Source: Acetobacteraceae bacterium | GTDB taxonomy: Bacteria > Pseudomonadota > Alphaproteobacteria > Acetobacterales > Acetobacteraceae | Reading direction: 5' to 3' | Assembly (NCBI GenBank): GCA_025452005.1 | Contig: JANWJK010000095.1 | Span: forward strand, 1-35,502 | DNA: 35,502 nucleotides | Part shown: one piece after another, positions 19,050 to 34,536 of the stretch | How positions within the stretch are numbered: the stretch's first letter is position 1 | How the letters are laid out: each line of letters begins with the position of its first letter | Notes under the pieces: generated by a model | What the model was told of the DNA's origin: nothing | The model's database searches: none | What the model saw: the letters and a program-made list of their open reading frames with translations, nothing else | Translations under genes and position numbers: made by a program

Positions 19050-22000
19050 TCAGGAGTTGCGCGGTAGCCGTATCGTGAACTCGCTGTACTCGCCGACCTT
19101 GCTGTCCACAGCGATGCTGCCGCCATGTTGCTGCGTGATTATATCGTAGCTGATCGACAGACCGAGGCCGGTGCCTTCGCCGGTCGGCTTCGTCGTGAAG
19201 AACGGCTGGAACAGCTTGTCCCTGATGTCAGCCGGAATGCCGATGCCGTTGTCCCACACGCGGATTTCCACCGCATCGCCGGTATCATGGGTGGTGACCT
19301 TCAGGGTCGGCACGAACCTGGCGTCCCCGCCTTCACGCGCCCGCCTCGTGGTCGCGTAGAAGCCGTTGGCGAAGAGGTTCAGGAACACCCGCGTGATGTC
19401 CTGCGGGTTGACCTCGATCGGGGCGATGCCCTCGCCGAAGTCGCGTTCCAGGGTGATGTTGAAACTCTGATCCTGCGCGCGGGCGCCGTGATAGGCGAGG
19501 TTCAGCGCCTCATCGATCAGCACGTTCAGATCGACCATGCGCCGTTCGCCCGATGAGCCGCGTGAATGGTCAAGCATGCTCCTGACGATACCGTCGGCAC
19601 GCTGCCCATGTTGGACGACCTTTTCCAGATTGCCCTTGAGAAGCGCCGTCAGGTCATCGACCTCCGTCCGGGCGGTCTCCCCAAGCGGTTCGGGGGCAAG
19701 CACCTCCCGCAACTCGTCGATCAGTTCGGTGGACAGTGCGGAGAAATTGTTGACGAAGTTGAGCGGGTTCTTGATCTCGTGCGCGATGCCCGCGGTGAGT
19801 TTGCCGAGCGAGGCCATCTTTTCCGCCTGGATCAGATTGGCCTGCGCGGTCCGCAGTTCGCACAGGGCGGTTTCGGCAGCGTCCCTTGCCGCTCGTATCT
19901 CGACCTCGGAACGCTTGCGCTCGGTGATGTCGGAGAAGATCAGCACGAAGCCGCCGTCCGGCACCGGGTTGCGGCGGATTTCGATCACTCTGCCGTCCGG
20001 CCGCGTGCGCTCATAGCCGTAGGCTTGGCCGGTACTGGCGACCAGCTCATCAATCTGCTCAACCGTATCGACACCCGGCCCAAAGTCGCCGCGCGCTGCA
20101 AGGAAGCGGAGGTGTTCCTCATAGGTGCGATGCTGTCCGAGAAGGGCGTCGGGCAAGTCGAAGATCTCCTGGAACTTGCGGTTCCATGCGACCAGCTGTT
20201 GTGTTTCGTTGAACATTGCGACGCCGTCGCCCATATTCTCGAATGTGACGCGCAATTCGGCCTGACGTTGTGCGAGTTCATCGGTGCGGGCACGTAACTC
20301 ATCCAACAGGCGGGCGTTTTCCATCGCAATTACTGCTTGCGCGGCGAAGTTCCCGAGCAGGGTGATTTCTTTCTCGGAGAATGCTCGTACCTCGCGGCGA
20401 AAAATAACGAAGACCCCGACAACGGCGTTGTCCTTGTACAATGCTACCCACAGGGCTGTGCGAGCCCCGAGACGTTCAACAGTAACCACGCGCGAGGGGA
20501 TCCGCTGACGGTAGGCGTCTGTATCGACCAGATCAAGGATGTGCACAACGCGTTCGCCATTAACAACGCGCCCCAGCGCACTGCCCGGCTCAGGCATAAT
20601 CGGGGTGGCAGTAGGGGAATACTCGAACCCATAGTGGTTGGCAACAACTTTGAAAGCCGTGCCATCAAAGATAGCTAGATTGCCAAATGCCGCATCACAC
20701 AACCGTATCGCCTTTTCCAACATCGCATCGAACACCGGCGTCAGGTTGCCGGGCGACGCGTTGATCACCTGCAACACCTCGGCGGTGGCGGTCTGTTGTT
20801 CCAGCGCTTCTCGCTGCTCGTTGATCAGCCGCGCGTTCTCCATCGCGATGACCGCTTGCGCAGCGAAGTTTTCCAGCAAGGCGACCTGCTTTTCCGTAAA
20901 CGGCCGGACCTCACGGCGATGCACGTTGATGACGCCGAGCAGTGCGCCTTCCTTACGCAACGCGACCGCCAGCCAGCTGCGGATCCCACGAAGTTCGAGC
21001 CGTTCGCGAGCCCGTGCGTTGGTCAGGAACGCCTCGGTTTCCCACACATCGACCAAATGGGTGACCGAAGCCCCCTGAGCGATCGCTTCGTAAAGGCCGT
21101 CCGGGTGGCTCGGGCCAAGCCGCTCCAGTTCCTCGAGGATGCCTGCCGGGGCGTGTGTAGCGACTAGGTTTAGGACGGAGCCATCGAAGGTGCGAACGGC
21201 TGCCTCGTCGGCTTCGCAAAGCGTGGCTGCCCGCTCTACGATTGCGTCGAACACCGGCACGAGATCGCCGGGCGAAGCATTGATGACCTCCAACACCTCT
21301 GCGGTCGCGGTCTGCCGTTCCAACGCCTCTCGCTGCTCGTTCAATAGCCGAGCGTTTTCCATCGCGATCACCGCCTGGGCGGTGAAGTTTTCCAGCAGTG
21401 CGACCTGCCTGTCGGTGAACGGCCGCACCTCCTGGCGGAAGATGTTGAACATGCCTATCAGGGCATTCCCCTGGCGCAGCGCGACCAGCAGCTGCGTGCG
21501 GGCACCGCCCAGGTCGGCAACGGCGCGGCGGCTTGGAATTCCGAGCCGATATGCCTCGTCGGCAGTGATGTCGGCCACGTGGACAAGGTCTTCGCCTTGC
21601 ACGAGCCGATAGGAGGACGATCCCTGCTCAGGCCGTACGGGTCGGCTCAGGAACTCGGCGAGGCGCGGATCCAGTCCGCGCGAAGCCACCGGGTGGAAGT
21701 ACTGGCCGTCGAAGGTGTTGAAGACACCAAATGCTGAATCGCAAAGCCGGATGGCCTTCTCCAGCATTGCGTCGAACACCGGCTGTAGATCGCCCGGCGA
21801 TTGGTTGATCACCTGCAACACTTCGGCGGTCGCAGTCTGCTGCTCCAGTGCCTCGCGCTGCTCGGTCAGCAGCCGCGCGTTCTCCATCGCGATCACGGCT
21901 TGGGCAGCGAAGTTCTCCAGCAGGGCGATCTGCTTGTCAGAGAATACCCGGACCTCCGGGCGGAATGCGCTGATAAAGCCCAGCAGGGCACCGTCTTTAC

Positions 22001-24605
22001 TCAGTGGCACCAGAAGCATGGTGCGTGCATCGGTGCTCTCCACCACTGCGTCGCCCCATGCGCTGTTCGGTCCACGCCCGATCGCACGGATGTCCGCGAC
22101 TTGAACGAAACGTTCACCGTCCACGAGGCGTTGTCGCGCGCGGTTCGGCCCGGCAGGTTCGCTGAACAACGCCGTGATTGAGTTTGGCCAGCCATGGGTC
22201 GCCACCGCGCGGAAATACGTGCCGTCAAAGAGCACCAATGACCCGATCGCGGCGCCGCACAGTGTGTGCGCCTTGTCCAGGATCGCCTCGAACACCGGCG
22301 TGAGATTGCCGGGGTTCGCGTTGATCACCTGCAACACTTCGGCGGTCGCGGTCTGCTGTTCCAGCGCCTCCCGCTGCTCGGTCAGCAGCCGCGCATTCTC
22401 CATCGCGATCACCGCCTGCGCGGCAAAGTTCTTTACAAGCGCGATTTGTTTGTCGGAGAATGGGCGCACCTCCTTCCGGAAGATTATAAACACCCCCAAC
22501 AGGGCATCATCTCCACGCAGCGCAACAAAGAGCGTCGTACGCGCTCCGTCCTGATGGATGTTCGGTGAGGACGGGGGCGGCGGCAGGAGCGGATCGGTGA
22601 TATCCGGGATGTGCACGATGTCAGCACCCCGGGCGATCTGGTCATAGGCGATACTCGCGCTTGGTCGAACCGGTCCGCGTTTGCGCAAGGCATCCACCAA
22701 GCCACTCGACATCCCCCGCGTCACACCGAACTGAAAATATTCACCATCGAAGGGCACGAGGCTGCCGAACGCCGCCTCGCACAGCCGCATCGCCTTTTCC
22801 AGCATTGCGTCGAAGACCGGCGCCAGGTTCCCCGGCGAGGCGTTGATCACCTGCAACACCTCCGCCGTAGCGGTCTGCTGCTCCAGCGCCTCCCTTTGCT
22901 CGGTGATCAGGCGCGCGTTCTCCATCGCGATAACCGCCTGCGCCGCAAAATTCTCCAACAGGACGATCTGCTTCTCGGAGAAAGGACCAGCCACCTTTCG
23001 GTAGCCGGTAAGGAATCCCAGCAGAGTGCCGTCCTTTCGTAACGGAACCATGAGACAGGCACGAAATCCCGAGGCCGTCACAAAGGCTGGAATGGCGGCA
23101 TCGTCGGGATCGACTGGGTATACCTGCATGTCCGGTATGTGGATTAGACGGTCGCCACGCAGCAACGCTCTCTGGGCGGTCAGGGGGCGATATGGCGTTC
23201 GTGCCATTACTTCCGCTTGGTTGCCGTAACCGCGCGTCGCCACGGCGCGGAAAAACGTTCCATCGTAGGTCGCCAGGGAACCCATATCGTATTTACAAAT
23301 CCTGTGCGCCTTCTCCAGGATCACCTCGAACACCGGCGCCAGATCGCCGGGCGAAGTGTTTATGACCTCCAGCACCTCTGACATCGCTGTCTGCTGCTCC
23401 AACGCCTCCCGCTGTTCGGTGATCAAGCGCGTATTCTCGATCGCGATCACAGCCTGATCGGCGAAGGTGCTGATGAGTTCGATCTGCCGATCAGTGAATG
23501 GCTCAACCCGCTGGCGCGCTAGCAAAATCACCCCAATTGGCACGCTTTCGCGTAACAACGGCATGGCGAGCGAGGTTCGCTGCTTGCCAAGCCGTATGGG
23601 TATATCTGGATAGCCTGGAACAGCAGCCACGTCGTGGATGTGGATGGTGCGGCCCTCAATCAAGGCTCTATGCGCCACAGCCGGCGTGTTTCGGTCTAAG
23701 GGAAATACCCCGAGGGCTTTTGCCGCAGCCTCGTATTCTGGTGGAAATCCACAATTTGCCCCCAACCATACTGTCTCGCCCTCGCGACGGACGATCACCG
23801 CTTGGTCAGCCTCGCAAAGCCGCGCCGCCGTTTGGACGACCGTATCCAGCACAGGTTGCAGATCGAAAGTGGATTGGCTGATCACCTTCAGCACGTCGCT
23901 GGTTACGGTTTGGTATTCCAGCGTTTCCTGAAGATCGCTCGTGCGGGTCTGCAACGCGCGATATGTCTCCGCACCAGTGATCGCGATCACCGCCTGCTCG
24001 GCGAAGGTTTGCAGCAGCGCAATCTGGCTGTCCGAGAATCCGCCGGGAGCCTGGGTGCCGATCGAAATAGCGCCGATCGCAAGGCCGTCTCGTATCAGCG
24101 GTACCGACACTTGCGACCGGTGCCCGAGTTCACGGATGAAGCCTGCCAGCTCGGAGTCCAGTCTCAGATCCCGGATGTGGACGATCTGCCGATCCAGGAT
24201 CGCCCGGCAAGAAATAGACCCGCGCGTCGGGCGCATGGGAAACAGTTGACTACATGCCGCCAATGGAGTGGCAGCCACGAACCTCTCGATGAGGTAGGAA
24301 GACCGAATGTGGACCAGGTGACCGTCATATTCGAACAGCGTTGCCGTCGGGACATTGCACAGTTCGGTCGCATGCCGAACGATCAGATCGAACACCGGCT
24401 GGGGATCGCCCGGCGAGGCCGACATCGCCTTCAGCACGTCGAGCGTCGCGGCCTGATTCTCGATCCGCTCGCCGAACTCGCTGTTGCGCAGGGCCAGTGC
24501 CTCGGCCAGCGCGGCCTTCTCCGACAGCGCCGCATCGAGCCTCTGCTGTAACACCGCGACGATGTTCTGAGGATCGGACGTTGCGTCGGTTTGTGGCAGG
24601 CTCAT
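19050..24605 (-). CDS. Large soluble hybrid sensor histidine kinase: about 8 GAF modules + PAS + HisKA/HATPase
   Basis: Repeated unit [49 protein letters not shown]; PAS region [31 protein letters not shown]...[12 protein letters not shown]; H-box [19 protein letters not shown]; G boxes [23 protein letters not shown]. No obvious TM segment. Confidence 0.95.
   Translation of the reverse strand: [1851 protein letters not shown]
20761..23888. repeat. Intragenic tandem-repeat array of GAF modules, unit 516-525 bp
   Basis: Conserved linker motif (ttgatcacctgcaacac-like) starts at 20761, 21280, 21805, 22321, 22843, 23359 and, more diverged, 23878; spacings 519, 525, 516, 522, 516, 519, all multiples of 3. 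Confidence 0.85.
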
Positions 24606-26181: not shown

Positions 26182-27000
26182 ATGCAGCTTGGCATCCATC
26201 TGCCGCACGCCGGCGAACAGGCGACGCCGGCACTGATCCGGCGCCACGCGATCCGCGCCGAGGCGCTGGGGTTCGACGACGTCTGGGTGAGCGAGCACAT
26301 CATCGTGCCGCGTAAGGAGTTCCCGCGCTCGCCGCTGTTCTACGATCCGGTGGTGACGCTGAGTTATGTCGCCGCGGTGACCGAGCGGGTGCGTCTCGGC
26401 ACAACGGTGCTGGTGCTGCCGATGCGTCATCCGCTGCCGCTGGCGAAGGAGCTGGCCACACTGCACAACCTCTCGAACGGGCGGCTGATCCTGGGTGCCG
26501 GCGTGGGCTGGCTGGAGCCGGAGTTCGCCGCGCTCGGTGTGCCGTTCAAGGAGCGCGGCCGGCGGATGGACGAAGGCATCGCGATGATGCGCGCGGTGTG
26601 GACGCAGGACCCGGTGACGTTCGAGGCGAAATACATCCCGGCGAAGATCACCGACTTGACGATGCTGCCGCTGCCGATCAGTCACATTCCGCTGTGGATC
26701 GGCGGCAGCTCGGACGCGGCGCTGAAGCGCACCGCGCGCATCGCCGATGGCTGGCATGGCAGCCGCGAGACGCCGGAGGAGGCCGCACCGATCGTGCAGC
26801 GTCTGCGCGCAGCGCGGCCGGAGGGGTTCACCGTCTCGATGCGAATCCAGTGGAACGGCAAGGACCAGGGCGAGCTGCGTGACCGGCTTGCGGCATACAA
26901 GGCGGTGGGCGTGCAGCACGTGTTGATAGCGCCGGTGAACCGCGAGGTGGATGACTGGGACGAGGTGATCGAGGGCGCGGGGCGGATGGTAGGGGCATAG
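26182..27000 (+). CDS. LLM-class flavin-dependent (F420-type) oxidoreductase
   Basis: MQLGIHLPHAGEQATPALIRRHAIRAEALGFDDVWVSEHIIVPRKEFPRSPLFYDPVVTLSYVAAVTERVRLGTTVLVLPMRHPLPLAKELATLHNLSNGRLILGAGVGWLEPEFAALGVPFKERGRRMDE. Confidence 0.95.
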   Translation: MQLGIHLPHAGEQATPALIRRHAIRAEALGFDDVWVSEHIIVPRKEFPRSPLFYDPVVTLSYVAAVTERVRLGTTVLVLPMRHPLPLAKELATLHNLSNGRLILGAGVGWLEPEFAALGVPFKERGRRMDEGIAMMRAVWTQDPVTFEAKYIPAKITDLTMLPLPISHIPLWIGGSSDAALKRTARIADGWHGSRETPEEAAPIVQRLRAARPEGFTVSMRIQWNGKDQGELRDRLAAYKAVGVQHVLIAPVNREVDDWDEVIEGAGRMVGA

Positions 27001-27003
27001 GAG

Positions 27004-27729
27004 ATGGCGACCTGTCTCGATTACGCGAAGATTGCGTACGCCGCGTACTTCACCGGCCCCGGACAATATTACGAGGAACCGTCCGGTCACATGGTGGACG
27101 ACTGGGTGGTCCAGCAGTGGGAGACCGGCACGCTGTTCGGGGATGGCTTCCAGGGCGGGATCTGGCAGTCCGCGAACGACGTCGTGGTCGGCTGCTGTGG
27201 CACCAATCCGCAACAGAAGGGGAAACTGCTCAGCGATCTGGGCGCTGACCTGCGCATCGGGTTGCGCATCCTGCCGAACCAGGCAAGTTCCGCGCGCCAG
27301 ATGGTCAAGGCCGCGAAGGACATCGCCGCGGGGCGCCGGGTTTCGGTGACCGGCCACTCGCTGGGCGGCGGGCTCGCGCAAGTCATGGGCGTCTGGGAAG
27401 AAGTTCCATTCGTGACCTTCAATGCTCCCGCGATGAAGAACGTCGTGAGGGCCGCGAACATCAACATCTTCAAGCCGATGATGATGGTGCGCACCCTGAA
27501 GGCGCAAAGCCCCGATGACACGGTCGGAGTGGATTTCCGGATTCGCGGGTTGGGCCTCGACGGGATCGTACGTAACGACCTTGTGAGCGCTCACGGCGTG
27601 GCGGGCGGACATATCGGAATGGTCGTCGATTTGCCTGCGGCCAGCAGCACGGGTGCCCATGGCAAGAACACCTGCTGGCAGGCGGTGTTGGCGACGGATT
27701 GGGCCAATATCGATCCCTTCGGGGCATAA
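27004..27729 (+). CDS. Lipase-like alpha/beta hydrolase (class-3 lipase-type GHSLGGG)
   Basis: RRVSVTGHSLGGGLAQVMGVWEEVPFVTFNAPAM, putative Ser at 27358-27360, downstream Asp- and His-containing segments (SPDDTVGVD, AHGVAGGHIGMVVDL); starts 3 nt after the LLM gene stop. Confidence 0.75.
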   Translation: MATCLDYAKIAYAAYFTGPGQYYEEPSGHMVDDWVVQQWETGTLFGDGFQGGIWQSANDVVVGCCGTNPQQKGKLLSDLGADLRIGLRILPNQASSARQMVKAAKDIAAGRRVSVTGHSLGGGLAQVMGVWEEVPFVTFNAPAMKNVVRAANINIFKPMMMVRTLKAQSPDDTVGVDFRIRGLGLDGIVRNDLVSAHGVAGGHIGMVVDLPAASSTGAHGKNTCWQAVLATDWANIDPFGA

Positions 27730-27831: not shown

Positions 27832-28476
27832 ATGGCGATGACCGGCTTTATGGAGGACCTGAAGGTCCAGCGGTGGGACGATCATCGCTATTATCACCAC
27901 AGCCGGATCAATCAGTCCCTCCATCTGCTCAGCGCGATGAGTTTCGTTTGCGCCTACGTGCTCGCATTCAAGGAGCCAGCTATGGCGGCCCTGATCGGAT
28001 GGCTGGTGGCCATGGTCAGCCGGCAGATCGGGCACCTGTTCTTCGAGCCCAAAGGCTACGACTTCGCCAACGAGGCAACGCACGAATACAAGGAGGCGAT
28101 CAAGGTTGGCTATAACCTGCGTCGCAAGATCGTTCTCTTGACGATCTGGGCGCTGTCACCGCTGCTGCTGTTCGTTGATCCGACGCTCCTGCACACTGTC
28201 AGCCCGCATCGAACCCTGGGCGAGTTCGCGCGGCACGTCGGCTACCTGTGGCTGGTACTCGGTATCGGCGGGCTGCTGTTTCGCACCGTGCATCTTTTCA
28301 AGATCAGGGATGTCCAGACCGGACTGGTCTGGGCAACCAAGATCCTCACCGACCCGTTCCACGATATAAAGCTGTACTACCGCGCCCCCGGCCGCCTGTT
28401 GCGCGGCGAACTCTTCGCGGACGCAACGTCGATGGCACATCCAGGCTGCCTGCAAGAGTCAGCGAGCGTCAGGTAA
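27832..28476 (+). CDS. Multi-pass membrane protein, Mpo1/DUF962-like (2-hydroxy-fatty-acid dioxygenase-like); start uncertain
   Basis: RYYHHSRINQSLHLLSAMSFVCAYVLAFKEPAMAALIGWLVAMVSRQIGHLFFEPKGYD resembles the Mpo1 pattern YHHxxxNxxxH ... Q.xGHxxFE; additional TM segments in the C-terminal half. Confidence 0.55.
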   Translation: MAMTGFMEDLKVQRWDDHRYYHHSRINQSLHLLSAMSFVCAYVLAFKEPAMAALIGWLVAMVSRQIGHLFFEPKGYDFANEATHEYKEAIKVGYNLRRKIVLLTIWALSPLLLFVDPTLLHTVSPHRTLGEFARHVGYLWLVLGIGGLLFRTVHLFKIRDVQTGLVWATKILTDPFHDIKLYYRAPGRLLRGELFADATSMAHPGCLQESASVR

Positions 28477-30153
28477 CGCCCGGGCGCGCACACCGAGCCG
28501 CGCACGGTAGTTGGCCAGAATCTCGCGAAGCACCTGTTGCCTGATCGACTTGTTGCTGCTCGCCGGGCCGCTCCACCACCAACCGTCCCGGTCCATCGCT
28601 TTTGTCGCAGCGAGGAACCGGTCCATGACGGCCGCGAAGTCGGCATCGCTGTAATTCAGGCTGAAGATGAGCCGCCCGGTACCCACCCAGCTCAGCACGA
28701 GGCCTTCGCCGCGAAGGTAATATTGCAGCATCCAGTTGTAACGCGACGGACGCGTGTAGCAAACGACCCAGATCGACGAGAAATTCGCCACCCGCACCGG
28801 GAGATTCTCCTCGGCCAGACGGCGGTTCATGCATTCGGCCCGCCTGTTCCAAAGCTCATCGAGCCCTTCATACAGCCGCAGCATCGCAGGCGTTGCCATG
28901 CGATGGAGAAACTCGTTCATCGCGCCAATGACGTAGGGATGCGCGTTGAAGGTGCCCCGCGCCAGGCAGACATCGGCCGGCCGATCGTCCCTGAATCGCT
29001 TCATCCATTCGTGGCGTCCGCACACCACGCCGACCGGAAGTCCACCTCCGAGCGTCTTTCCGTAGGTGACAAGATCGGCCTGGACGCCGAAATACTCCTG
29101 CGCCCCGCCAAGCGCCACGCGGAAGCCAACGAAGACCTCATCGAAGATCAAGGCGATCTTGCGTTCGGTGCACACCGTCCGGAGTTGCCGCAGCCAGCGC
29201 GTATAGGCCTGGCGATCGAAATGCGCTGCCCTTCCGCTGTCTACCAGCGACGAATCGGCTGGCGCGGCAGCATTCGGGTGCAGTGCCTGGAGCGGATTGA
29301 CGAGCACGCAGGCGATATCGCGGCGCGTGCGAAGCACATGCAGCGCGCGCTCGGACATTTCTGCCAGAGTGTAGGTCTCGCGCACGGCCGAAGGATTGCC
29401 TATGCCGGGCTGAACGTCGCTCCACCAGCCATGATAGGCGCCGGCGAAGCGCACAATGTGCGAGCGACGGGTATGATACCGCGCAAGCCGCACCGCCTGC
29501 ATCACCGCTTCGGTGCCCGACATGTGGAACGACACCTCGTCCAACCCGGAGATCTGGCGGATTCGTTCGATGTTATAGGCGACGATCGGATGGTAGGCGC
29601 CCAGCACTGGCCCAAGATCGCGCACCCGCTCCGCACCGCCTGCGATGCACGCCTTGTAGAAATCATAACCGAAAAGATTGACGCCGTAGGAGTTGGCAAC
29701 GTCGTACAGGACATTGCCGTCGGCATCGCTGACCGTGACGCCATCGGACGACTGCAGGATGGAACCAGAGGCCAGGTGCTCACGCACGTAGCGGCTGAAC
29801 TGGAAGGGAACCCGATAGGCGGACGTGAACTGAAGGTCGGAAGCGCCGCTCCGGAGCTGGGCAGTCAGCGCACTGGTCCGTGCAAACCGCTCGCTATAGA
29901 TCGCGGCAAGCCGCACAAAGCCATCGCGCCGTCGGATCGCGATGTCCTCCGGCGGATCGTCCGAACGGAAGAACCGATGTTCGTCGTACTCATAGAATGG
30001 CACCAGCGATGCGATCAGTCGTGCGAGACGAGTGTGTCCCGCAAGCGACCAGTGCTTCGCTCGCGACAATTCTATGCGTCGCTTGAGTTTGAGGACCGGA
30101 AAACTGAGCACCGCCGCACCGGCGGCATAGGCTGCGAGCATCGTCATTTCCAT
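28459..30153 (-). CDS. Class III PLP-dependent aminotransferase (glutamate-1-semialdehyde aminomutase-like) with N-terminal membrane anchor
   Basis: N-terminal hydrophobic MLAAYAAGAAVLSFPVLKLKRR; VSFHMSGTEAVMQAVRLARYHTRRSHIVRFAGAYHGWW; ALIFDEVFVGFRVALGGAQEYFGVQADLVTYGKTLGGGLPVGVVCGR (PLP Lys in YGKTLGGG); FNAHPYVIGAMNEFL. Confidence 0.9.
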   Translation of the reverse strand: MEMTMLAAYAAGAAVLSFPVLKLKRRIELSRAKHWSLAGHTRLARLIASLVPFYEYDEHRFFRSDDPPEDIAIRRRDGFVRLAAIYSERFARTSALTAQLRSGASDLQFTSAYRVPFQFSRYVREHLASGSILQSSDGVTVSDADGNVLYDVANSYGVNLFGYDFYKACIAGGAERVRDLGPVLGAYHPIVAYNIERIRQISGLDEVSFHMSGTEAVMQAVRLARYHTRRSHIVRFAGAYHGWWSDVQPGIGNPSAVRETYTLAEMSERALHVLRTRRDIACVLVNPLQALHPNAAAPADSSLVDSGRAAHFDRQAYTRWLRQLRTVCTERKIALIFDEVFVGFRVALGGAQEYFGVQADLVTYGKTLGGGLPVGVVCGRHEWMKRFRDDRPADVCLARGTFNAHPYVIGAMNEFLHRMATPAMLRLYEGLDELWNRRAECMNRRLAEENLPVRVANFSSIWVVCYTRPSRYNWMLQYYLRGEGLVLSWVGTGRLIFSLNYSDADFAAVMDRFLAATKAMDRDGWWWSGPASSNKSIRQQVLREILANYRARLGVRARALPDAR

Positions 30154-30191
30154 CGCCGTCGAATCGCTCCATCCGGCAAGATGCCAATATC

Positions 30192-31085
30192 ATGAAAGCG
30201 CTGCGCTCCGCGATTGCCACGATCATTCGTCATGAAGACGTCAACTTTCTGCTGACCAACCGCATCCCAAGACGCCTCGCCACCCGCCTGTTCGGCTGGT
30301 TCAGCCAACTGGAGCATCCACTGGTTCGCGATCTGTCGATCGGCGTCTGGCGCCGTTTCGCCGATCTCGATCTGGACGAGGCGCGAGAGCACCGCTTCCG
30401 CAGCCTGCATGACTGCTTCATCCGGCGGCTACGAGACGGTGTGCGCCCGATCGATCCCGACCCGGCGCTTCTCGTCAGTCCTTGCGATGCGATTGTCGGG
30501 GCATCCGGCTCGGTTCTGGGCGATCAGGTCATGCAGATAAAAGGCTTTCCCTATCAACTGCGAGACCTGCTCACGGACGAGCAACACGCCAAGATCTACC
30601 GGGACGGCTGCTACGTGACGCTGCGGCTCACGTCGGCAATGTACCACCGCTTTCATGCGCCGCATGACTGCAATGTCGAATGCGTCACCTATGTCTCCGG
30701 CGATACGTGGAACGTCAATCCTATTGCGCTCGAACGCGTCGAGCGCCTGTTCTGCAAGAACGAGCGAGCGGCAATCAAGGTCAGGCTCTCCCGTACCGGT
30801 CATCCCATCACCCTGGTTCCCGTCGCTGCGATACTGGTGGCAAGCATTCGCCTCAACTTCCTCGGCCCGTGCAACGACGTCCGTCGCGGCGGCCCACGAA
30901 CAACGGAACTAAATGTGCCGTTGGCAAAAGGCGAGGAGATGGGCTGGTTCCAGCATGGCTCGACGATCATCGTCTTCGCACCGCATGGCTTCACCCTGGC
31001 GGAAGGCATCCGCCAGGGTTGCAGAATCCGCGTCGGAGAGCCGCTCATGCGACTGCCTCCCGCCACATCCGCCGCCAGCCGGTGA
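30192..31085 (+). CDS. psd: Phosphatidylserine decarboxylase-like proenzyme
   Basis: LVSPCDAIVGASGSVLGDQVMQIKGFPYQLRDLLT...GCYVTLRLTSAMYHRFHAPHDCNVECVTYVSGDTWNVNPIAL...KGEEMGWFQHGSTIIVFAP; GST self-processing site with HGST at 30954-30965. Confidence 0.9.
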   Translation: MKALRSAIATIIRHEDVNFLLTNRIPRRLATRLFGWFSQLEHPLVRDLSIGVWRRFADLDLDEAREHRFRSLHDCFIRRLRDGVRPIDPDPALLVSPCDAIVGASGSVLGDQVMQIKGFPYQLRDLLTDEQHAKIYRDGCYVTLRLTSAMYHRFHAPHDCNVECVTYVSGDTWNVNPIALERVERLFCKNERAAIKVRLSRTGHPITLVPVAAILVASIRLNFLGPCNDVRRGGPRTTELNVPLAKGEEMGWFQHGSTIIVFAPHGFTLAEGIRQGCRIRVGEPLMRLPPATSAASR

Positions 31086-31233: not shown

Positions 31234-31638
31234 TTATGGCCCACTACGCGCGAGGTAGTCTGCTGGCCGCAGAACAGATATGCCGCGCCACGGATGCAGG
31301 ATCAGCAGGTCGTGATCGCTGGAGACGACCGTGTGTGCCTCGGCCGCTACAGCGAGTTCGAGATACTTATTGTCGCTGGGGTCTCGACAATCGGTCACGA
31401 CGACCGAAGGTTCGAACCAATAAGTTCCCGACACAAGCTGATCCAGCAGATCCGCACGCAGGACCGGATCGACAAAACGCGCCAAACGTGGCCGGTGAAG
31501 AACGTCGAATAGTTCATCCAATACATGCTGCGACATCGCGATCGTATCGATCGCCCGTGCCTTTTCCAGTGCCCGGTAGGGTGCGCCAGTGTCATCCATT
31601 GCGGCGCTGACGAGCGCTGATGCATCGAAGACGATCAG
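31234..31638 (-). CDS. PIN-domain toxin (PIN_3/VapC-like), apparent CTG start
   Basis: Reading through from 31638: (CTG)IVFDASALVSAAMDDTGAPYRAL...MSQHVLDELFDVLHRPRLARFVDP...VVTDCRDPSDNKYLELAVAAEAHTVVSSDHDLLILHPWRGISVLRPADYL. First in-frame ATG (31599) would drop the first catalytic Asp. Confidence 0.78.
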   Translation of the reverse strand: MIVFDASALVSAAMDDTGAPYRALEKARAIDTIAMSQHVLDELFDVLHRPRLARFVDPVLRADLLDQLVSGTYWFEPSVVVTDCRDPSDNKYLELAVAAEAHTVVSSDHDLLILHPWRGISVLRPADYLARSGP

Positions 31639-31919: not shown

Positions 31920-33003
<1,084 letters not shown>

Positions 33004-33005
<2 letters not shown>

Positions 33006-34536
33006 GCACTATAATCTGGCGACGATGACCGCGATCCGCCATCCCGCTGTCGCCGGGACCTTCTATCCAGCCGAACCGGACGCGCTGGAACGGCAGCTCG
33101 CGCTGTTCCTGTCCGAGGCCGCCAACGATGCGCCGTTCCCGGCGCTGCCCAAGGCGATCATCGGCCCGCACGCCGGCTACATCTATTCCGGCGCGGTCGC
33201 CGCCCGCGCCTATGCCCGCCTCACCGCGGCGCGTGGCCGCGTCAGCCGTGTGGTGCTGATCGGACCGTCGCACTACCTGGCGTTCCGCGGCCTCGCCGTC
33301 GATACAGCCGCGGCCTGGGCCATGCCGAGTGGCACCGTCGCGCTCGACACCGAGGCGATCGGCCGGCTGCGCGCGCTGCCCATGGTGGGCGAGCTCGACG
33401 CCGCCTACCAGCGCGAGCACGCGCTGGAGGTGCACGTGCCGTTTCTCCAGCATGTGCTGGGCGAATTCCGCCTGGTGCCGATCGTGGCCGGCGACGCCCC
33501 GCCCGAGGCGGTTGCCGCGGTGTTCGATGCGCTATGGGGCGGGCCGGAGACGTTGTTCGTGGTGTCCACCGACCTGTCGCATTTTCTCGACTATGCCGCA
33601 TGCCGCCGGCTCGACCAGTCCACGGCAGAGGCGATCGAGCGGTTCGACATCGATGCGCTGGGCCCTACCGAGGCGTGCGGGGCGGTGCCGACACGCGGGC
33701 TGCTGCTGGCGGCGCGGCAGCGCGGCATGGCGATCGAGCGGCTGGACCTGCGCAACTCCGGCGATACCGCCGGCCCGCGCGACCGCGTGGTGGGCTACGG
33801 CGCCTGGGCGCTCTACGAGAGTGCGCCGCCGGATGCGGAGCAGGTGGCGATCGAGGCGCTTGGACCGGCGCTGATCGATCTGGCGCGGCGCTCGATCCTG
33901 TTCGGGTTGGATACCGGCCTGCCGCCGCACGTCGTGGCGGACGCCGGTCTGGCGCCGTTGCTCGCGGCGCCCGGCGCTGCCTTCATCACGCTGCGGCGGC
34001 GCGACGGTGCGTTGCGCGGCTGCATCGGTTCGGCTGTGGCGACGCGGCCGCTGATCGTCGACGTGGTGGCGCATGCGTTCAACGCGGCGTTCCGCGACTG
34101 GCGCTTTCCGCGGCTGGACTGGCTGGAGCTGGCAGGACTGTCGCTGTCAGTCTCGGTGCTGACGCCGCCCTCGCCCATGCGCTTCGCCGATGAGGCCGAC
34201 CTGCTGGCGCAGCTTCGCCCCGGGATGGACGGGCTGATCATCGAGGATCTGGGACGCCGCTCGCTGTTCCTGCCCAGTGTGTGGGAGGAGTTGGCGGAGC
34301 CTCGGCAGTTCCTGACGGCGCTGAAGCTGAAGGCGGGGCTGGCGGCGCAGCATTTTTCCCCCGGCTTCCAGGCGCAGCGGTTCCGTTCGATCGAGGTGAA
34401 GGGGGCGATGGAGGCCGGCGGCGGCGCGGTCGCCGGGCGGCTGGGGTGGACGGTGCTGGGGACGGGGAACCGTCAGCCCGGATCGAGCCGCAGCGTGGTG
34501 GACAGCGTGTCGGGTGCGACGATCGACTTCGCATAG
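33004..34536 (+). CDS. amrB: AmmeMemoRadiSam system protein B (MEMO1 family) fused to protein A (AMMECR1 domain)
   Basis: Memo: RHPAVAGTFYPAEPDALERQL...IIGPHAGYIYSGAVAARAYARL...VVLIGPSHYLAFRGLAV...EHALEVHVPFLQHVL...FVVSTDLSHFLDY; AMMECR1: AAFITLRRRDGALRGCIGSAVATRPLIVDVVAHAFNAAFRDWRFPRLDWLELAGLSLSVSVL. Start 33004 or 33025. Confidence 0.96.
33010..33015 (+). promoter_or_regulatory. Perfect TATAAT hexamer, putative -10 element for the Memo-AMMECR1 gene
   Basis: cactaTAATctggcgacgATG: TATAAT at 33010-33015, 9 nt before ATG 33025; only weak -35 match upstream. Confidence 0.3.

Follow-up and report, generated by a model that had tools for sequence, protein, structure and literature searches.

A conserved three-gene module of a class III aminotransferase, a second phosphatidylserine decarboxylase and an Mpo1-like membrane protein with a probable role in membrane phospholipids of Proteobacteria

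The aminotransferase (AMT) domain of mycosubtilin synthase aminates a beta-ketoacyl thioester. Yeast Mpo1 is an Fe(II)-dependent dioxygenase of 2-hydroxy fatty acids and works in the degradation of phytosphingosine. For the PlcP/Agt system, lipid remodelling under phosphate limitation was described (PMC9239053, PMC4796936). Three neighbouring genes of an Acetobacteraceae bacterium (GCA_025452005.1, contig JANWJK010000095.1) were compared with these systems. The window, i.e. the whole stretch of DNA analysed, comprises 35,502 nucleotides and is the entire contig C95 of a 5.02 Mb assembly with 74% completeness. The genes encode a class III aminotransferase (AT), a second phosphatidylserine decarboxylase (PSD) and a membrane protein distantly related to Mpo1. 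They occur together in many Proteobacteria and almost certainly form one functional module. The enzymes are all of known families. Neither this locus nor the combination was found described in the open-access literature searched; subscription journals were outside that search.

The following features were assigned in the window (coordinates, strand, description, basis; PLP, pyridoxal phosphate; ORF, open reading frame):

27832..28476, forward: Mpo1/DUF962-related integral membrane protein, 214 aa (PF06127; hhalign; AlphaFold2 model)
28459..28476, no strand: stop-to-stop overlap of the 3' ends of the AT and Mpo1-like genes, 18 nt (ORF coordinates)
28459..30153, reverse: class III (fold type I) AT, AMT-like, predicted to be membrane-anchored, 564 aa (Aminotran_3; 6kfm)
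29056..29058, reverse: codon of the PLP-binding lysine K366 of the AT in TYGKTLGGG (invariant column; aligned with GK of 6kfm)
30079..30153, reverse: N-terminal hydrophobic segment of the AT, residues 1-25, followed by KLKRR; predicted single membrane anchor (hydropathy; model)
30154..30191, no strand: start-to-start gap between the divergent AT and PSD genes, 38 bp (sequence)
30192..31085, forward: second PSD, pyruvoyl PSD family, module-specific clade, 297 aa (PF02666; TIGR00163)
30954..30965, forward: HGST self-cleavage/pyruvoyl motif of the PSD, H255-T258, with S257 (invariant columns)

All three ORFs are present in the ORF list of the window at the coordinates that an earlier note on this DNA had given, and the convergent overlap and the divergent gap reported there were correct as well. 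The starts and frames of AT, PSD and Mpo1-like protein are supported by orthologues aligning over nearly the full length.

Grouping and inheritance of the three genes

A genome scan with the AT yielded at least 557 related stretches in one genome collection. The best 80 relatives show 66-73% identity and belong to alpha-, beta- and gammaproteobacteria and to one metagenome-assembled genome (MAG) labelled Myxococcales. Both partner genes adjoin the AT gene in nearly all of these 80 loci. No AT relative was found in viral contigs.

Together with further loci from additional genomes, the scan loci gave a set of 97. The order PSD< AT> Mpo1< was found in 85 of them; one locus carries the Mpo1-like gene on the other side. 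Five loci, all of family f39 with small genomes, have a one-strand cluster AT>GT4>PSD>Mpo1>. In the remaining six the stretch examined contains only one or two of the three genes, several of these loci lying at contig ends. In the five f39 loci (L123-L127) a protein of about 900 aa with a glycosyltransferase family 4 (GT4) domain is encoded between AT and PSD. Its C-terminal part is GT4, and an N-terminal PHP-like region with a HCHD-type motif was recognised by eye; Pfam reports GT4 only. This PHP-like/GT4 fusion was rejected as a core partner, being confined to family f39 among the genomes searched. As the clusters were rearranged and the genes are still linked, a shared function is argued.

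The divergent order of AT and PSD is kept across loci. The stop-to-stop distances of 85 loci have a median of 49 bp, and the convergent genes overlap in 18% of these loci; the 18-nt overlap of the window is thus not a conserved trait. A promoter scan of the 38-bp gap, from which shared control had been suggested, gave no sigma-70-like matches.

The presence of the genes was examined in 299 genomes of Pseudomonadota, with at least 54% identity defining an AT orthologue and more than 50% a module PSD. AT, Mpo1-like protein and module PSD were each found in 21 genomes, and all three in 20. The genes do co-occur, and the absence of co-occurrence that the earlier note had named as a refutation was not observed. 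Both exceptions involve contig ends: in G156 the AT lies on a contig ending inside a GT4 gene, and in G291 the PSD and the Mpo1-like gene lie on a contig that also ends inside GT4. The Mpo1-like query gave no further match in the 299 genomes at E <=0.001. At two loci with AT and PSD only (L012, L020) the Mpo1-like gene was located on another contig of the same genome. These unlinked genes adjoin PmtA (L183) or an ORF in which GT4 and PmtA are fused (L184). The latter (L184 3106-4920, reverse strand) holds both domains in one frame of 604 aa, which may be a true fusion or the result of a stop lost in the MAG. One genome, G056, contains none of the three genes, and its congeners G171 and G195 are carriers. 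The pairwise distances among the three proteins correlate with r 0.80-0.85, a value that no permutation equals; common genome ancestry contributes to it.

The grouping of the three genes is far beyond chance. Neutral linkage, with functionally unrelated genes travelling together in horizontal transfer, would fit the patchy distribution in the window's own family, where only two of 17 relatives possess the module. However, no gene of the three occurs solo in the 299 genomes and the clusters were retained despite rearrangement. Because of the all-or-none profile and the retention of the genes after unlinking, neutral hitchhiking is rejected as extremely improbable.

Relatives of the three proteins

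The AT of the window matches Aminotran_3 with E 1.9e-30. By sequence, the AMT domain of mycosubtilin synthase (6kfm) is its best solved relative, with E 9.3e-49, and 2.6e-58 in the profile comparison. The same domain is the closest solved fold to the AT model (TM-score 0.83 to target). The PLP-site residues K366 and D338 are invariant among the orthologues, so that lysine, fold and nearest relative all place the AT in the AMT-type class III enzymes with an intact catalytic site. Next in similarity, in other genomes, come domains lying inside frames of 1,091-2,806 codons, as in polyketide synthases and non-ribosomal peptide synthetases (PKS/NRPS). In contrast to the AMT of MycA (6kfm/6kfu), the AT stands alone without acyl carrier protein (ACP) or PKS/NRPS modules, and its N-terminal part comprises a membrane segment as well as a helical domain of about 100 residues. 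Among the recurrent module neighbours no ACP gene was recognised.

The hydrophobic N-terminal segment of the AT, pointed out in the earlier note, is conserved in the orthologues together with the basic residues after it. For 96 AT orthologues the maximal N-terminal hydropathy over 17 residues has a median of 1.89 and exceeds 1.2 in 99%, and the model displays a helix at residues 2-32. The AT is therefore predicted to be anchored in the membrane by this segment. The assignment to the glutamate-1-semialdehyde (GSA) aminomutase type did not hold, as the AT is closer to the beta-ketoacyl AMT domains of PKS/NRPS. HemL shares the PLP fold and the general family signature with the AT, but the score of 154.8 bits is far from the hemL equivalog cut-off of 527.3 bits. 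Furthermore, the AT has the additional anchor, and no haem genes are found among the recurrent neighbours.

The module PSD lies above the cut-offs of both PF02666 (182.8 vs 22 bits, E 7.6e-54) and TIGR00163 (158 vs 111.75 bits). The solved PSD structures 6l06 and 7cnw align with it at E 4e-32. D99, H155 and the G256-S257-T258 part of the HGST motif are invariant in 16 orthologues, D99 and H155 aligning with the solved PSD. Thus, the catalytic Asp and His and the self-cleavage serine of the pyruvoyl site are kept. The enzyme may decarboxylate a phosphoserine lipid. It differs from ordinary Psd in the motif, HGST replacing the LGST or GGST of other long PSDs. In a tree with six other long PSDs, those of the module fall into a single clade (99/96) separate from them; short housekeeping PSDs, which the motif filter missed, are not part of this tree.

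The module PSD is an additional copy. A short PSD is encoded elsewhere in the window genome (G000 C136), in line with the second PSD considered in the earlier note, and the module PSD as sole PSD is ruled out. With PF02666, the module PSD and at least one other PSD were detected in the AT-positive genomes searched, G156 aside, where the contig breaks in the module. Exactly one PSD was found in each of eight AT-negative genomes of the same family that were tested.

The PSD family includes enzymes with soluble substrates, and PsiD-like 9jer is a weak match to the module PSD. The enzyme could accordingly act on a small soluble amino acid and the module make a small amine natural product. We consider this very improbable, since the lipid PSD structures are far closer (4e-32 vs 6e-4), a membrane location is predicted for two of the three module proteins, and the genes nearby encode phospholipid enzymes.

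The identification of the third protein with Mpo1/DUF962 has to be narrowed to a distant relationship. The window protein scores 19.5 bits against PF06127, which is below the curated cut-off of 24, and the match is confined to its N-terminal half. Nevertheless, PF06127 was matched by all 29 orthologues scanned (best E 3e-5), three of them exceeding the cut-off with 25.6-27.1 bits. Alignment to bacterial DUF962 with hhalign gave E 4.3e-5 and a probability of 69% over 49 columns. H22, H31, H68 and E72 are invariant in the Mpo1-like orthologues and align with H15, H24, H62 and E66, which are invariant in bacterial DUF962. The core H..N...H ... GW ... GH..FE with three His and one Glu is consequently kept. 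Unlike Mpo1/DUF962, the protein is longer (about 210 aa) and its C-terminal half differs, with invariant residues of its own. The AlphaFold2 model is all-helical with a pLDDT of 82.

The role of yeast Mpo1 leads to the question whether the module is catabolic. It would then break down 2-hydroxy or sphingoid-type lipids, the Mpo1-like protein alpha-oxidising 2-hydroxy acyl chains and the AT deaminating long-chain amines. A solved class III enzyme deaminating a sphingoid-like amine, aminopentol aminotransferase 6hbs, is related to the AT with E 5e-14, and one carrier is a Sphingomonas plasmid. However, the match of the AT to AMT is much stronger than to 6hbs, and PSD and PmtA are biosynthetic. 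To our knowledge, sphingolipid use is not known for most of the carriers found (Bradyrhizobium, Zoogloea, Methylocapsa). Such a breakdown function therefore appears quite unlikely.

Phospholipid enzymes beside the module and proposed function

In 93 loci with AT and Mpo1-like gene, PmtA is encoded nearby in 51, GT4 in 55 and a PlcP-like protein in five. The linked PmtA was identified by 8ys9 (E 4.9e-43) and by NF045882 (3e-44, under the strict cut-off). Several alphaproteobacterial carriers possess this PmtA, sometimes with GT4, in addition to the general copy; AT-negative relatives have one general PmtA and one general GT4 copy. The window genome and its congener contain general PmtA and GT4 copies only, and the linked PmtA is absent at the window locus. 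A PlcP/LpxH-like phosphoesterase and an MprF-like membrane protein occur less often beside the module, as do an LplT-like transporter, a UDP-glucose dehydrogenase and a PldB-like hydrolase, the last three recognised by eye only. On a plasmid of Sphingomonas parapaucimobilis the genes are annotated as 'asd archaetidylserine decarboxylase', 'aminotransferase class III-fold', 'hypothetical protein' and 'methyltransferase domain-containing protein'. The Mpo1-like orthologue (59%) is the one annotated as 'hypothetical protein', and its gene overlaps the methyltransferase gene by 4 nt.

A further membrane protein adjoins the module at L079 10422-11222 (forward strand) and has a glycine/cysteine-rich C-terminus (GGGGCGGGGCGGGD). 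Genes like this are found in nine Zoogloea-type loci.

The lipid-related grouping seen in the earlier note is strengthened by neighbours such as PmtA, GT4, PlcP-like and LplT-like proteins, and a phospholipid context of the module is very probable. GT4 and a PlcP-like metallophosphoesterase adjoin some module loci as in PlcP/Agt remodelling, but the latter is confined to the five loci mentioned. The window locus was rejected as a member of that system, having no PlcP phosphoesterase or glycosyltransferase. We know of no AT, PSD or Mpo1-like counterparts in the PlcP/Agt system.

Since the three genes are passed on as a unit next to phospholipid enzymes in many unrelated Proteobacteria, the synthesis or remodelling of a membrane lipid is their probable function. 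The copies of PSD and PmtA beside the housekeeping ones suggest a substrate outside the reach of the ordinary enzymes. In the proposed route the N-terminal helix would keep the AT at the inner membrane. There the enzyme would aminate a lipid or acyl intermediate at a keto group, by analogy with the closest characterised relative, whose substrate is a beta-ketoacyl thioester. The module PSD would convert the phosphoserine head group of that lipid to phosphoethanolamine, and the Mpo1-like protein may carry out an Fe(II)/O2-type oxidation of the lipid or its acyl chain. Where present, the dedicated PmtA would methylate the ethanolamine and GT4 would glycosylate. Membrane anchoring, substrates, reaction order and product are what we infer here.

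Several points weigh against this route. The kinship of the membrane protein to Mpo1 is distant (hhalign probability of 69% over 49 columns), and a fold search of its model against the PDB gave nothing better than E 0.9. PmtA and GT4 are not core, as the window locus and many others lack them. The main layout is divergent and convergent and not a single operon. Finally, the dedicated PSD and PmtA copies could be explained by regulation instead of by a different substrate.

The main rival is a conditional second route to ordinary phosphatidylethanolamine and phosphatidylcholine (PE/PC). PSD, with PmtA, would be a stress- or phosphate-regulated duplicate, and AT and Mpo1-like protein would supply or salvage acyl chains. 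The catalytic residues of the module PSD are those of ordinary PSD, the linked PmtA resembles a PE N-methyltransferase, and the PlcP-like and GT4 neighbours are reminiscent of the way lipids are remodelled when phosphate is limiting. However, such a route leaves the obligate presence of AT and Mpo1-like protein and the separate HGST clade of the module PSD unexplained, and we regard it as rather unlikely.

The best explanation overall is that the module modifies or makes a membrane phospholipid by a route of AT, PSD and Mpo1-like protein, and we favour it with some reserve. The aminated-lipid chemistry exactly as set out above is a tentative proposal and may well differ in its steps. An aminolipid or a 2-hydroxyacyl lipid, about which the earlier note speculated, may be the product of the locus. 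A new class of amino-phospholipids parallel to PE/PC is conceivable, if doubtful: the AT would aminate the acyl chain or backbone of a precursor, the Mpo1-like protein would trim or oxidise it, and dedicated PSD and PmtA would build ethanolamine- or choline-type heads.

Further genes of the window and meaning of the module

Directly upstream of the Mpo1-like gene, 27004-27729 (forward strand) encodes a protein with a weak Lipase_3/alpha-beta hydrolase match and a GHSLGGG motif. This gene is not conserved in other loci, and the locus of the congener lacks it. Together with the LLM oxidoreductase gene at 26182-27000 it was rejected as a module member, because conservation stops at the genus. On the other side, 31234-31599 (reverse strand) encodes a PIN-domain toxin-like protein (TIGR00305); a partner antitoxin was not identified. 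An AmmeMemoRadiSam system, a widespread system, is encoded by a divergent pair with overlapping starts at 31920-33005 (reverse) and 32989-34536 (forward). It comprises a radical SAM enzyme (TIGR04337, 627 bits) opposite a Memo-AMMECR1 fusion. The gene at 19050-24605 (reverse strand) codes for a histidine kinase of 1851 aa with eight GAF stretches, PAS and HisKA/HATPase, an unusually large number of tandem GAFs.

The module is widespread, and its carriers include the well-studied Bradyrhizobium and Zoogloea. The current annotation is piecemeal, with 'aminotransferase class III-fold', 'archaetidylserine decarboxylase' and 'hypothetical protein' as separate entries. Should the product of the module be a distinct lipid, common soil and water bacteria would possess a class of membrane lipids that has been overlooked. 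In that case, lipidomics would offer a direct test of what a bacterial Mpo1 relative and stand-alone AMT-type aminotransferases do.

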